Both the position numbers and the translations under genes were made by a program. From assembly GCA_022606425.2 (NCBI GenBank), contig JAHDVF020001564.1, positions 1,550,001 to 1,614,000 of the forward strand: a DNA stretch of 64,000 nt. The letters run 5' to 3'. Shown here one piece after another: positions 9,242 through 49,469 of this stretch. Within the stretch, counting starts at the first letter, position 1. The number at the start of each line of letters is the position of its first letter. The notes under the pieces are model-generated. The model searched no databases. It had not been told where the DNA came from and was given only the letters and a program-made list of their open reading frames with translations. Source of the stretch: Lepidostoma basale. Taxonomy: Eukaryota > Arthropoda > Insecta > Trichoptera > Lepidostomatidae.

Positions 9242-9282
9242 TACACCTGAAGATGGAGGTATCCTCTGAAACATGTCGTGTA
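9242..9282 (+). ncRNA. Hammerhead ribozyme, compact form
   Basis: Stem I is TACAC 9242-9246 with GTGTA 9278-9282. The core is CTGAAGA 9247-9253. Stem II is GGAGG 9255-9259 with CCTCT 9263-9267 (outer G-U pair), loop TAT. GAAA is 9268-9271, stem III is ACATGT 9271-9276, and the cleavage nucleotide is C9277. All invariant core bases are present. One extra T (9254) lies between A9 and stem II. Confidence 0.8.
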
Positions 9283-16227: not shown

Positions 16228-16800
16228 TTTCGTGATCGAATGTTTGTGTGGTCGATTGTTTGTGTGTTCGATTGCTTGTGGTCGAATGTTTGTGTGGTCG
16301 ATTGTTTGTGTGGTCGATTGTTTGTGTGTAGAATTGTTTGTGTGTAGGATTGTTGTGTGTAGGATTGTTTGTGTGGTCGATTGTTTGTGTGTAGGATTGT
16401 TTGTGTGTAGGATTGTGTTTGTGGTCGAATGTTTATGTGGTCGATTGTTTTTGTGGTCGAATGTTTGTGTGGTCGATTGTTTGTGTGGCCGAATATTTGT
16501 GTGGTCGAATGTTTGTGTGGTCGATCGTTTGTGTGTAAGATTATTTGTGTGGTAGATTTTTTGTGTGGTCGAATGTTTGTGTGGTCGATTGTTTGTGTGG
16601 TCGAATGTTTGTGTGGTCAACTGTTTGTGTGGACGATTGTTTGTGTGGTCGAATGTTTGTATAGTCGATTGTTTGTGTAGTATTTTGCTAGTGCGGTCGA
16701 TTGTTTGTGTGGTCGATTGTTTGTGTGGTCGATCGTGGGTGTGGTCGATCGTTTGTGTGGTTGATTGTCTGTGTGGACGATTGTCTGTGTGCTCTAGTCG
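16228..16800 (+). repeat. 16-bp minisatellite array
   Basis: Roughly 35 tandem variants of TGTGTGGTCGATTGTT, with GTGTAGGATTGTT variants in the middle. Because 16 is not a multiple of 3, each frame repeats every 48 bp (16 codons), so several overlapping frames stay open on both strands. These are not genes. The flank after 16800 (TTATTTTGTATGTAATTA) matches the flank of the 43.4 kb array. Confidence 0.9.
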
Positions 16801-21539: not shown

Positions 21540-21737
21540 GTAATCAAATCGATGTAAAGGGTATTATAGCTATCATAGTGATTCTCGTGATATGTGACCG
21601 GTAGTTAATTGTCACGTGAATTCTACATCAGACCAAAGACAGTGTGACAATCACCCTGCCCTCGCCGGGAATCGAACCCGGAACCTTCGGGGTGGCAGTC
21701 AATGCACTTACCACTTGGCCACGAAGGTCGGTCGTTC
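21540..21737 (-). mobile_element. SINE-S, minus orientation
   Basis: Reversed B box GGAATCGAACCCGG (about 21666-21679) and reversed A box CCACTTGGCCA (about 21711-21721). The body continues left to AATCGATGTAAAGGG. Well preserved head. Confidence 0.85.
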
Positions 21738-26970: not shown

Positions 26971-27463
26971 CGAAAAACATTTTTATTTAAAATTGACATA
27001 TTTAAGAAATGCAAGCGAATTGCGTTTGAACTACGTGATATTGTATTCGCTGACAGAATGAAATGACGTCGGCGGCATAAGAATAATGCTCGGTTCGGAA
27101 TTGAATTCTGTCTTGGACCCCTTGGGGAGGTCGGCAGCCTAAAAGCCCTGACAATAGGGGATGATAGGGGATCACGGTACCCCTTAGACGCAATGGAAGT
27201 CGTACATGACTCATATCACATATCAAAATCATTTATAATATGATATTGCTTTAACAGTACTCGAAATATTTATAATATTTATTTTTCGAATTAAAAATAT
27301 AACAGAATTAGTAAACATAAAAAAATTATATAGTAGTATACCCGCCGACTTTTATGTATGAAAGTGAAGCTTGGAGTTGCCAGAAAAACGATGATAGTAG
27401 GATAAATGCCGTATAATTGAGGATAATAAGAAGAATGTGCGTAAAATTATGTATGATAGAATA

Positions 27464-27685
27464 TTAATGTTAAAATTTAAAACACTTTTAATATCACAAT
27501 TCATTTTTATTCATACCGAGTGTCGCGACAGCTGTTTCGCCAACTGATGATGCCAACATCGGTTGGCGAAACAGCTGTCGCGACACTCGGAGTGAATAAA
27601 AAGAAATTGTGATATTATAAGAGTGTTTTAAATTTTAACAGTAATAATGTTGAAGTATCATAGTGTTTCGGCCAAAACAATGGAC
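27464..27685. mobile_element. 222-bp foldback retroposon with central hammerhead
   Basis: A perfect 12-bp TSD TATGATAGAATA lies at 27452-27463 and 27686-27697, inside LINE-A2. The core arms 27516-27543 and 27563-27590 are 28-nt perfect inverted repeats; weaker pairing extends to about 27480 and 27628. Each arm carries the hammerhead 3' half (GCGAAACAGCTGTCGCG) on opposite strands. The right end GTGTTTCGGCCAAAACAATG recurs inverted at 44.7 and 45.56 kb. Confidence 0.85.
27544..27590 (+). ncRNA. Hammerhead core within the foldback
   Basis: Core CTGATGA 27544-27550, extra T 27551, stem II GCCAAC 27552-27557 with GTTGGC 27562-27567, GAAA 27568-27571, stem III ACAGCTGT 27571-27578, cleavage nucleotide C27579. 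The immediate 5' flank comes from the inverted arm, so a local stem I is not formed. Cleavage may need another partner. Confidence 0.7.
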
Positions 27686-27812
27686 TATGATAGAATACCT
27701 AATGATGATGTAAGAAAGGAATGTAAGGCGGATGAATCCGTGATAAATAAAATTAAGAAAGGGTCACTAAGATGGTTTGGACGTATGGAACGAATGGATG
27801 AGGAAGTTGTTA

Positions 27813-28870: not shown

Positions 28871-29044
28871 GTATAACCCAATTGGGTTTTTAAAAAAAAA
28901 TTTAAATTTTTATTTTTTTTAAATCATCTATGAGGATTTCCCCTCCCCTTTTAGACAAAATAAAATCTATAGTAATGAAGAAGAAAGAGATTCGGATAGG
29001 TAGTACGGCTACGATAGAGAAGGCTTGGCTGGAAAGTAATCCAC

Positions 29045-29190
29045 TTGATTGTAAGACCTGATGATGCTAACATCGGTTAGCGAAACAGCTGTCGCGACAA
29101 AATATAATCGATTGTTATATTTACAATTTATGACAAGTTTTTTTATAATAATGTTGAAAGTGTTGAAGTGTTTCCGCCAAAACAAACGAA
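29045..29190 (+). mobile_element. Single-unit hammerhead retroposon
   Basis: Hammerhead at the left, then about 60 AT-rich bases, then ATAATGTTGAA and GTGTTTCCGCCAAAACAA. This is the same order as the right half of the 27.5 kb foldback. Confidence 0.6.
29058..29096 (+). ncRNA. Hammerhead core
   Basis: CTGATGA 29058-29064, extra T, stem II GCTAAC 29066-29071 with GTTAGC 29076-29081 (loop ATCG), GAAA 29082-29085, ACAGCTGT 29085-29092, C29093. Stem II differs from the 27.5 kb copy by a compensatory C-G to T-A pair. Stem I pairing is weak. Confidence 0.7.
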
Positions 29191-29239
29191 TATTTTAGTT
29201 ATTTATAATTTTGTCATTTCTGTGCCTTTCTATATATTC

Positions 29240-43312: not shown

Positions 43313-43357
43313 TGTACATGTATTGAAATAATTTCAATCATACCGATTGCTTATGTT

Positions 43358-44182
43358 TGGTCTATTATTCGTGTGGTCGATTGTTCGTGTGGTCGATTGT
43401 TCGTGTGGTCGATTGTTCGTGTGGTCGATTGTTCGTGTGGTCGATTGTTCGTGTGGTCGATTGTTTATGTGGTCGATTATTTGTGTGGTCGATTGTTTAT
43501 GTGATCGATCGTTTGTGTGATCGATTGGTTGTTGGGTCGATCGCTTGTGTGGTCGATTGTTGGTGTGGTCGAATGTTGGTTTGGTTGAAAGTTTGTGGGG
43601 TCGATTGTTTGTGTGGTCGATTGTTAATGTGGTCTACTGTTGGTGTGGTCGATTGTTTGTGTGGTCAATTGTTTGTCTTGTCGATTATTCTTGTGGTCGA
43701 TTGTTAGTGTGGTCGATTGTTCGTGTGGTCGGTTGTTTATGTAGTCGATTATTTTTGTGGTCGATTGTCAGTGTGGTCGATTGTTCGTGTGGTCGAATGT
43801 TTATGTGGTCGATCGTTTGTGTGGTTGATTATTTGTATGGTCGATTGTTTGTATGGTCGATCGTTTGTGTGGTCGATTGTTGGTGCGGTCGAATGTTGGT
43901 GTGGTCGAATAATTGTGTGGTCGATTGTTCGTATGGTCGATTATTGGATTGGTCGATTGTTTATGTGGTCGATTATTTGAGTGGTCGAATGTTAGTGTGG
44001 TCGATTGTTTATGTGGTCGATTATTTGAGTGGTCGAATGTTAGTGTGGTCGATTGTTTATGTGGTCGATTATTGTTTTTTGTGGTTGATTGTTGGTGTTG
44101 TCGATTGTTGGTATGGTCGTATGTTTGTGTCGTCGATTGTTTATGTGGTCGATTGTTTGAGGAGTCGATTGGTTGTGTGGTC
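43358..44182 (+). repeat. 16-bp minisatellite array, second locus
   Basis: About 51 tandem variants of TGTGTGGTCGATTGTT/C. It opens long overlapping frames (for example 43545-44195 on plus) that are artefacts. The right flank TTATTTTGCATGTAATTATA matches the 16.2 kb locus. Confidence 0.9.
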
Positions 44183-44189
44183 ACGTCAA

Positions 44190-44650
44190 TTTTAAAACGT
44201 TTTTATTATTTTGCATGTAATTATAATACACTTTTTATATACGATACAATATTTAAAACAAATATCGAATCATGACGTTACTTTTTGCATACTTAAAATT
44301 CTTTTTAGAAAGGGTAATTATGTATATTAAGCATATAATTATTTATAAGGTTATTAATTTAAGGATATTGCAGAATTCAATTACAATATCAGTCACTAAT
44401 TATGACATTATCTGCAGTGGCGTGTGCAATTATTTCACAATACGCGTTTCTAATTGCAGATTAATGAGACAGCATCAATTACATTGGCTGTGAATATCAC
44501 ATACAGGATGCTTTTTTGTATTTTATCACCGGTTTCGGAGAAAACTGATTCAGAAGTGTAACAGCATAATGAGATTTTTAATTAATTAATTTTTCGTATA
44601 ATACGATAATACCAACAACAAACAATCAACTTTATAATATAGAATTTAAT
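44190..44650. other. Array flank and unassigned AT-rich DNA
   Basis: The first 60 bp match the 16.8 kb array flank. CAGTGGCGTG at 44415 is a possible hAT end without a partner. Confidence 0.3.
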
Positions 44651-44747
44651 ATTTTCAACAAAAAAATCTTAATTTCTATAATAGTCCATTGTTTTGGCCG
44701 AAACACAATGATACTTCAACATTATTAACTGTTAAAATATACTCGTA
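44651..44747. repeat. Left copy of a ~90-bp direct repeat (hammerhead-retroposon end)
   Basis: TTTTCAACAAAAAAATCTTA to ACTGTTAAAATA. The right copy is 45528-45615. Contains GTTTTGGCCGAAACAC, the reversed end of the 27.5 kb foldback. Confidence 0.65.
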
Positions 44748-45524
44748 TGTCCTGGTGAATAGTATGTATGAGGTATGCATGCGAAATGATCTGATGATGA
44801 ATGTTAATAAGTCCAAGATAATGATTTTTGAAAAATAAGAAGTCATGACAGTCTGCAACATTAGCGTGAATGGTGAAAATCTGGAGCAAGTAGATGAGTT
44901 CGTGTATTTAGGTAGTATGTTTACAAGAGATGCACGTGGCGAGTGGAGAGGGATGTTGAAAGAAGGTTTGGGGCAGGCAACAGAGTAAATAGTGCACTTA
45001 AAGTTGTCATCGCAAACAAAAGCCTATCCAAAAAAGCTAAAATGGCAGTGCATAATGGTGTTCTTGTGCCGACCCTTATGTATGGTAGTGAAGCATGGAA
45101 CTGGCAAAAGAAGGATGAAAGTAGAATAAATGTAGTAGAAATGAGATCTCTAAGACGAATATGTGGATACTCTGTATGATAGAGTGTCGAATGGAAATAT
45201 AAGATGTGAATGCGGCGCGAATGATGGTGTTATGAAATTATGATGGAAGAAGGATCATTAAGTTATTTTGGACACATGGAAATAATGAATGAAGAAATAA
45301 TGTAAATAGAACTAGAAATAGAGGAAGACCGAGGAAAACGTGGCACGATCAAATAAATCAAATATTGAATGTCGGCCATGTGAGGAGTCAGAGAAATCGA
45401 CGCGCGTGCATGACACGATGTATGAATGTGGAGGAAGCGAGAGAAGTATGCCAGTAAAGAAAAGTGTGGCAGTCCATTCTTTCTGCCTACACCTTCGGGG
45501 AGACGGCGTGATGGTAAGTTAGTT
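44748..45524 (+). mobile_element. LINE-A
   Basis: From SMYEVCMRNDLMMNVNKSKI through FVYLGSMFTRDARG and frame 44943-45179 (ALKVVIANKSLSKKAKMAVH, LVPTLMYGSEAWNWQKKDES). It ends GRPRKTWHDQINQILNVGHV, SAYTFGETA and a short TAAGTTAGTTA tail. Frameshifts near 44935 and 45180. Confidence 0.85.
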
Positions 45525-45527
45525 ATG

Positions 45528-45720
45528 TTTTCAACCAGAAAATCTTAATTTCTACAAAAGTCCATTGTTTTGTCTGAAACACAATGATACTTCAACATTA
45601 TTAACTGTTAAAATATTGTATTATATAAAACGCTGTTTAGGGCATCACAGATTTTTATACATTTCTATTTTATGCAACAGATGTTTCGTCAACCTATATT
45701 GACATCATCGGGTGTTTTTT
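45528..45720 (-). mobile_element. Hammerhead retroposon, minus orientation
   Basis: The right copy of the 90-bp direct repeat (45528-45615) leads to a decayed hammerhead at about 45680-45715. On the minus strand it reads CCGATGA (U4 to C), stem II GTCAA/TTGAC, GAAA, ACATCTGTT. Confidence 0.6.
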
Positions 45721-48699: not shown

Positions 48700-48743
48700 T
48701 TCTCGACATGTTTCGAAGGCTTACACATTTATCATCGGGAGAA
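48700..48743 (-). ncRNA. Hammerhead-like motif with CCGATGA core
   Basis: On the minus strand: stem I TTCTC (48743-48739) with GAGAA (48704-48700), core CCGATGA (48738-48732), GAAA, ACATGT, C48705 (GUC). Stem II is poorly formed. The U4 to C change is expected to reduce activity. Confidence 0.5.
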
Positions 48744-48815
48744 CGATATAAACTAACAAAAATAATTACAAACTGAGTGCAAGAAGTTAGAATTATTAAA
48801 GCATGTGTATTTTAT

Positions 48816-48862
48816 TTTACGCGACAGCTGTTTCGTCAACCTATGTTGATCATCAGGTGTTA
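48816..48862 (-). ncRNA. Hammerhead core, minus strand arm
   Basis: Minus strand: CTGATGA (48856-48850), stem II TCAAC/GTTGA with 5 bp, GAAA (48834-48831), ACAGCTGT, C48823. Two bases before stem II are deleted relative to its partner. Confidence 0.65.
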
Positions 48863-48898
48863 CAATAATATATCAAAATCGAATTTTGATACATTATT

Positions 48899-49297
48899 TA
48901 ATTGTATCTCAATAGAGACGAAGATGCAAACTGTAAACTGAATATGGTTGATCAAGGTGTTTACAGGACTTATGACCTGTCATTGGTTGGGTTAAGCGCA
49001 CGCTTTATGTAATTACAACATTCCCCATTCCACCTATTTCTTGATGACCATGTAAGACAAATTTTTGGAGGTTGTATATATGTTACAAATCTATGCCTAA
49101 CTTCACATGTCAGTTTCAATAAGCCATCTATGTAGATTTTGATTACATATGTTAATCTTTTTAAGATTAATCTATATAATCCACACACTAACGCCATCTA
49201 TGGAGATTAATTTTTAGCATTTAGCAGAACTACTTTATTAAACGTGGGTGAAATCCAGTATTCGTATACAAGTATAAGTATTCACAAAAAAAAAATA
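48899..49297 (+). mobile_element. SINE-M, 399 bp, 12-bp TSD
   Basis: Perfect TSD TGATACATTATT at 48887-48898 and 49298-49309. It starts TAATTGTATCTCAATAGAGA and ends with an A-run. No clear pol III B box; TGGTTGATCAAGG near 48945 is only an A-box-like word. No coding frame. Confidence 0.85.
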
Positions 49298-49311
49298 TGA
49301 TACATTATTGT

Positions 49312-49357
49312 AACACCTGATGATGTCAATATAGGTTGACGAAACAGCTGTCGCGTA
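49312..49357 (+). ncRNA. Hammerhead core, plus strand arm
   Basis: CTGATGA 49317-49323, extra T, stem II GTCAA 49325-49329 with TTGAC 49336-49340, GAAA 49341-49344, ACAGCTGT 49344-49351, C49352. Stem I flank ACAC/GCGT pairs with one mismatch. Confidence 0.7.
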
Positions 49358-49469
49358 AAATATAATACAATTGTGATACATAAAACAAAGTTTTTTAATT
49401 TAATAGTTTATAAAATCTACATCTACATCTACATATAAATAAAACGCAATCTGGGTTGTGTGTGTCTCC

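Follow-up and report, generated by a model that had tools for sequence, protein, structure and literature searches.

The 222-bp insert described here is probably a copy of a high-copy, non-coding, Penelope-type retroelement that is reduced to its pLTR-like arm, with a foldback assembled from two cDNAs, one started on each side of the target break. The mobile unit is probably an arm of about 165 nt with a hammerhead-like core and not the 222-bp palindrome, which most likely arose secondarily, from priming on both sides during insertion. The window, that is the whole stretch of 64,000 nucleotides that was analysed, contains the insert at 27464-27685.

The insert interrupts a LINE, with TATGATAGAATA on either side, at 27452-27463 and at 27686-27697. 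The flanks when joined give the empty site, through which 16 other LINE matches within the window align, so that the insertion claimed in the preliminary description is real. The same description gave a perfect 12-bp target-site duplication (TSD). TATGATAGAATA does stand on both sides, but family copies usually continue with GGACTATT(T) at the right junction; the TAT found there may therefore be the element's own, and the duplication would then be 9-12 bp. The insert contains no ORF of at least 150 aa.

The perfect 28-nt inverted repeat and the CTGATGA in its loop, both reported earlier, are present (27516-27543 and 27563-27590 with a 19-nt spacer; CTGATGA at 27544). They lie in a wider palindrome at 27462-27646, with two arm pairs that are 88% and 93% complementary. 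The fold of 27452-27697 has a z of -20.4 relative to shuffles. The final 39 nt of the insert are outside the palindrome. The motif CTGATGA-N17-GAAA is present three times in the window against 0.06 expected. A full arm of the family starts at about GTTTATTGTAACACC, passes through the hammerhead-like core and stops at one of two ends, site A (approximately reference 116-128) or site B (approximately reference 160-168). The parts of the window copy are as follows.

27346-27810, forward strand: LINE copy hit by the insertion; the stretch is from the 3' part of the LINE ORF (empty-site alignment)
27452-27463, no strand: left target-site duplication, TATGATAGAATA (direct reading; empty-site alignment)
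27464-27543, reverse strand: left arm, an antisense family arm that begins at site A, has no tail and ends in hammerhead stem II (reference 122 to 30)
27516-27543, no strand: left half of the perfect 28-nt inverted repeat (sequence reading)
27540-27563, no strand: arm-arm junction at the hammerhead core and stem II, with CTGATG vs CCGATG microhomology (fold; joint comparison)
27544-27646, forward strand: right arm, a sense copy from CTGATGA to site A (arm alignment)
27544-27582, forward strand: hammerhead-like core, CTGATGA / stem II / GAAAC / AGCT / GTC^GCG (motif count; stem pairing)
27563-27590, no strand: right half of the perfect 28-nt inverted repeat (sequence reading)
27647-27685, forward strand: tail of 39 nt on the right arm only, from site A to site B (arm alignment; profile)
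27686-27697, no strand: right target-site duplication, TATGATAGAATA (direct reading; empty-site alignment)

Sequences of this family are abundant in the 769-Mb genome. Two family 25-mers match 7,543 (arm) and 13,464 (tail) places with at most two mismatches, and their reversed controls match none. A 117-nt arm pattern is found at 222 places with at most three mismatches, the reversed pattern at 0. The 222-bp query has at least 94 genome matches (40 of 2202 first-look candidates were scored) and is covered from 1 to 222 at no fewer than 14 places besides its own, with 84-92% identity. The whole-assembly search thus shows that the insert is not unique, and the target duplication together with the thousands of places for the family 25-mers bears out the mobile, non-autonomous-looking insertion that had been proposed. 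A test of one tail per pair by the tail/arm count was discarded: the tail 25-mer outnumbers the arm 25-mer instead of being half as frequent, and the two decay differently and are not comparable. Viral and prokaryotic contigs gave no match in pattern scans. When the arm sequence was looked up in the literature, a single unrelated paper was returned, and no report of an arm-only foldback family was found in the literature searched, which was the papers of one library.

The outer ends of the copies recur. We tabulated 61 loci, most of them chosen via tail-containing queries, and 50 of these have a left arm with a score of at least 60. The left arm stops at reference 118-128 in 39 of the 50. Among 27 loci, most right ends read CCAAAACAATGGAC and then TATT(T), and most left ends lie at TTACTGTTAAAA or a few bases inside it. 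Duplications were scored at the 45 loci in which the left arm reaches reference 115 or beyond, with 1980 mismatched pairs as the control. Exact TSDs of at least 9 bp flank 15 of the 45 loci (46 of the 1980 mismatched pairs), and those of at least 12 bp flank six, the window included (4 of 1980). The longer examples are 14 bp (L015), 13 bp (L023, L029 and L044) and 12 bp (L064). In the other 30 loci any exact duplication is shorter than 9 bp, and A/T runs make up some of the matches. The left flanks of the copies are 80% AT, compared to 63% in the window.

As most of the 61 loci had been picked with tail-containing queries, 20 extra loci were taken for which a 25-mer that lies upstream of site A served as the query. 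They cover the first 21 exact matches in its listing, and each stretch spans 330 nt 5' and 110 nt 3' of the 25-mer. In this listing-order sample, 16 of the 20 loci are head-to-head arm pairs and four are single arms. Nine of the 16 pairs combine one site-A end with one tailed arm, which is approximately 40 nt longer; two are tailed on both arms (L103 and L109), none has a site-A end on both, and five are without a clear end class (L101, L105, L112, L114 and L116). At L109:243-469 a third arm directly follows the head-to-head pair in the same orientation, the only direct tandem among these loci.

The joints between arms vary. The centres of 12 copies of window-like length take six forms, all of them inside the core and stem II. 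The window, L010 and L018 have one form in common, and L012, L014 and L042 have the window centre with one changed base. Further differing centres are those of L009 with L028, L016, L013, and L017 with L019. The centre of the last two is the reverse complement of the window's, which amounts to an identical joint with the tail carried by the opposite arm. The arms of the 222-type copies are dispersed in the leaf order of a tree that has no support values. In many young copies both arms extend as far as the 5' end of the RNA, and fillers of up to 40 nt lie between them. L095 has a 106-nt centre that is itself partly palindromic and is possibly a nested insertion. Of the discrete 222-bp foldback element in the preliminary description, the recurring outer ends hold, but the six centre forms in 12 copies, the varied arm lengths and the single arms speak against it. 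A single fixed 222-bp family was rejected as unsupported, though some copies do share a joint form. Because of the six centre forms, the further joints and arm lengths and the single arms, the foldback has the look of a product of insertion. Some foldbacks may have been re-copied, since the joints are not all unique.

The two arms of a locus often differ in reach. In six of the 50 loci (L021, L024, L027, L043, L045 and L064, the last noticed ahead of the tabulation) the tail-less arm is longer at its 5' side by 21-92 nt, and L099 of the 20-locus sample is another such case. The tailed arm is longer in 13 of the 50, and the arms are within 15 nt of each other in 31. Where the tail-less arm has private sequence and the tailed arm has its tail, neither can be a copy of the other, barring later deletions, which could mimic unequal arms. 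The two arms of one locus resemble each other slightly more than do arms from different loci (0.096 vs 0.103; 0.16% of permutations are as low), and the own partner is the closest arm in only 3 of 47 cases. A variable segment is of equal length in 18 of 25 loci, compared to 74.7% under random pairing, and is identical between the arms in 10 of 25, compared to 29.5% at random. Two templates from one pool mostly fit these values, and a shared template in some loci would explain the slight likeness within a locus.

The mechanism that we propose would begin with a Penelope enzyme making a staggered break with 3' overhangs of approximately 9-14 nt. An arm RNA would serve each 3' end as template for a separate cDNA, which would start internally, at site A for one side of the break and at site B for the other. 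Each cDNA would extend toward the RNA 5' end (near GTTTATTG) or halt early. The 3' ends of the cDNAs would then join, in the window copy within the self-complementary hammerhead stem II and elsewhere also with filler, and gap filling would create the target duplication. Steps of this kind have a partial counterpart in Anolis PAc, for which the sections of PMC11167929 consulted describe reverse transcription starting at two internal sites, which bound the tail, as well as cutting and extension of both DNA strands in vitro.

A single cDNA that folded back on itself could in principle give the same palindrome. In this scenario, a tail-primed cDNA reached CTGATGA, snapped back (CATCAG:CCGATG, with a 7-nt loop) and copied itself. 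This fits the window joint exactly, and self-priming was inferred for head-to-head Penelope palindromes, there with an antisense template, in the relevant part of PMC3846280. It would also allow the 31 near-equal arm pairs and the 13 longer tailed arms, and arms from one locus do resemble each other a little more than random pairs. However, it cannot explain six loci of the 50, where part of the tail-less arm has no equivalent in the tailed arm. The tail-less arm mostly halts at a recurring internal site with the tail uncopied (39 of 50 loci; 9 of 16 pairs), the reverse-complement joint exists (L017 and L019), and the length variants of the segment agree no more than under random pairing. The loci L021, L024, L027, L043, L045, L064 and L099 are hard to fit to it barring later deletions. 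We regard snap-back copying as unlikely.

The spread of the arm by circular hammerhead RNA, in the manner of a retrozyme, with integration by some resident reverse transcriptase (RT) is likewise improbable. Small size, AT-richness, such a hammerhead core and TSDs are reported for metazoan retrozymes in the portion of PMC7229834 consulted, and the family studied here is small and AT-rich, has a type I-like hammerhead core with a short stem III and shows TSDs of more than 4 bp. Metazoan retrozymes are tandem repeats, whereas arm neighbours less than 300 bp apart are here head to head in 15 cases, direct in four, which look like split single arms, and tail to tail in one. One direct tandem was seen (L109), although the sampled stretches end 110 nt 3' of the 25-mer and could miss more. 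For about 3 of the 37 arms in the 20-locus sample the start lies past the predicted cleavage site; most cDNAs would thus have read through it. It is very improbable that the insert is a DNA transposon of foldback or MITE type, mobilised by a transposase as a 222-bp unit. The insert is short and palindromic with target duplications, at least 14 other places match query 1-222, and some copies have a common joint form. Nevertheless, the termini are not mutual inverted repeats and a 39-nt tail is on one side, there are several centre forms and single-arm copies, TSD length varies, and the 222-type copies are spread across the arms tree by leaf order (without support values). The DNA transposon was rejected on its asymmetric ends and several centres. 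Integration of two cDNAs of an arm-only, Penelope-type element remains the reading we prefer.

Further members of the family lie in the window, as does a core like that in the pLTR of a resident Penelope family, PLE-A. Those listed below as found by the family profile are matches above its inclusion threshold.

9242-9282, forward strand: hammerhead-like core that resembles the PLE-A pLTR, TACAC-CTGAAGA-TGGAGG-TAT-CCTCT-GAAACATGTC-GTGTA (motif comparison)
29040-29199, forward strand: single-arm relative with tail, stem II GCTAA/TTAGC (family profile)
44676-44740, reverse strand: second copy of the tail part of the 45552-45717 relative, beyond the LINE (family profile)
45552-45717, reverse strand: diverged relative that extends from the core to the tail, with a LINE fragment after it (family profile)
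48801-48879, reverse strand: arm of an older subfamily, head to head with 49296-49406 (family profile)
49296-49406, forward strand: arm of an older subfamily, stem II GTCAA/TTGAC (family profile)

At 44640-45717 a LINE fragment interrupts the reverse-strand arm, and about 95 bp of the same arm sequence were seen by eye on either side, as if the LINE insertion had produced a very long target duplication. The head-to-head arms of the older pair (48801-49406) are several hundred bp apart. A further hammerhead-like motif, CCGATGATAAATGTGTAAGCCTTCGAAACATGTC, is at 48705-48738 on the reverse strand, downstream of the 48.8-kb arm, and a similar one is in L046. A 46-residue peptide of the 29058 copy has no homologue among those searched, and its frame is absent from the window arm (by eye). 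The window also contains one 16-bp tandem unit in the same orientation at 16232-16791 (35 copies) and 43344-44182 (52 copies), and a tRNA-like Rfam match at 21657-21728 on the reverse strand (34.8 bits vs a gathering score of 29), perhaps a SINE.

For the hammerhead that the preliminary description placed at the centre of the element, the results are mixed. The core nucleotides CUGANGA ... GAAA ... UH are present, and stem II changes in step among the window relatives (GCCAA/TTGGC, GCTAA/TTAGC and GTCAA/TTGAC). In stems II and III all 39 of the 39 scored cells are paired, with two covarying pairs in stem II, in five copies only. On the other side, stem I is weak, and the energy model favours another fold (-16.4 vs -3.6 kcal/mol for the hammerhead, on a typed composite sequence). 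The Rfam hammerhead models at loose cut-offs had 0 matches in four window stretches, four young copies and two resident Penelope loci, and at the gathering score none in the whole window. The word hammerhead is used here for a putative motif defined by the core nucleotides, the stem II covariation in five copies and a comparison with resident Penelope ends. Because the upstream strand of stem I is missing, the window copy is expected to be inactive. Both of its arms extend across the predicted scissile bond; hence the template would have been uncleaved there. In L043 the right arm begins at reference 56, directly 3' of the predicted cut, and this locus would therefore fit a cleaved template.

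Penelope elements are resident in this genome. It holds at least 62 GIY-YIG matches (150 of 542 candidates were scored), and L078 has a 758-aa ORF with RVT_1 and GIY-YIG domains. The best named relatives of a resident Penelope protein are from insects, so the host is probably an insect. The L078 locus has inverted terminal stretches that include a hammerhead-like pLTR with a deviating core, CTGTCGA (by eye). A near-canonical core of the PLE-A type, TACAC-CTGAAGA-...-GAAACATGTC-GTGTA, occurs (with small changes) in L051, L061 and L065, on the downstream side of the endonuclease match; window position 9247 has this core too. The otherwise different arms have in common an ATG opening stem II, GAAA, a palindromic stem III and TC, features that support a common architecture. 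Alignment to Penelope-like termini, which had been suggested earlier, gave a mixed result: the arm is collinear with the PLE-B pLTR, weakly (5 of 500 shuffles equal it), and the match to the PLE-A pLTR is not distinguished from shuffles (87 and 23 of 500 equal it).

The earlier statement that no Penelope RT is present holds for the window's contig as far as the listed GIY-YIG matches go, none of the 62 being located there, but not for the genome, which has both RT and GIY-YIG. No Penelope ORF carrying the window arm was found among the 62 listed places and 137 listed copies, the nearest GIY-YIG being 69 kb away. Likewise, no larger element containing the arm, of which the insert might have been an internal part, was found among the part of the copies that was read. 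Linkage of arm and GIY-YIG by co-location was rejected: 6 of 30 GIY-YIG loci hold diverged arms, and the arm density around these loci, 0.110/kb, is not above the 0.125/kb of the window. Among 13 young loci of 6 kb each, four hold frames of at least 200 aa. Of the five frames, none with a GIY-YIG, one is a mariner-type transposase, one has RVT_1 and looks LINE-like by eye, and the remaining three match no family.

In the literature consulted, Penelope integration and the reason for the inverted ends, the optional tail and the hammerhead motifs are unsettled. In a tiny non-coding version with thousands of places, each event displays its joint as well as its two ends, and counting can therefore tell two-sided priming from self-priming. 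It is possible, if somewhat short of an even chance, that the arms are an in vivo record of two-sided Penelope-type integration, with separate RNAs, two internal starts and stem II as the welding microhomology. If so, inverted pLTRs and the optional tail would be explained without self-priming, and the hammerhead sequence would have a role at the DNA level besides RNA cleavage.

The Penelope likeness of the foldback, proposed from the start, is borne out by its head-to-head arms, the tail on one of them, the short TSD and the AT-rich targets. In the Penelope element of Adineta vaga, the sections of PMC3846280 consulted describe an inverted pLTR, a 31-bp tail on one of the two copies and a TSD of 8-10 bp. 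The head-to-head inversion, the 30-40-nt tail on one arm, the short TSD and the AT-rich targets are thus as in the Penelope pLTR pairs of that source and of PMC11167929, in the parts of both that treat them. The hammerhead motif with an ATG opening stem II is like that described for Anolis PAc (PMC11167929, same sections). Unlike Penelope elements, the window family is arm-only, has no inserted ORF and has a very high copy number, and an autonomous element with the window arm was not found among the copies searched. It resembles metazoan non-LTR retrozymes, as far as described in the portion of PMC7229834 cited above, in being small and non-coding with a type I-like hammerhead core, a short stem III and TSDs, and differs from them in having head-to-head pairs and single arms instead of tandem arrays, and in being known here from DNA. 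Minimal Penelope hammerheads are reported to cleave as dimers (Cervera and de la Pena 2014; Lunse et al. 2017). The window family also has a palindromic stem III, which could favour dimers, and this stem, ACAGCTGT, is longer than those of the resident Penelope copies (ACATGT and ACCGGT).
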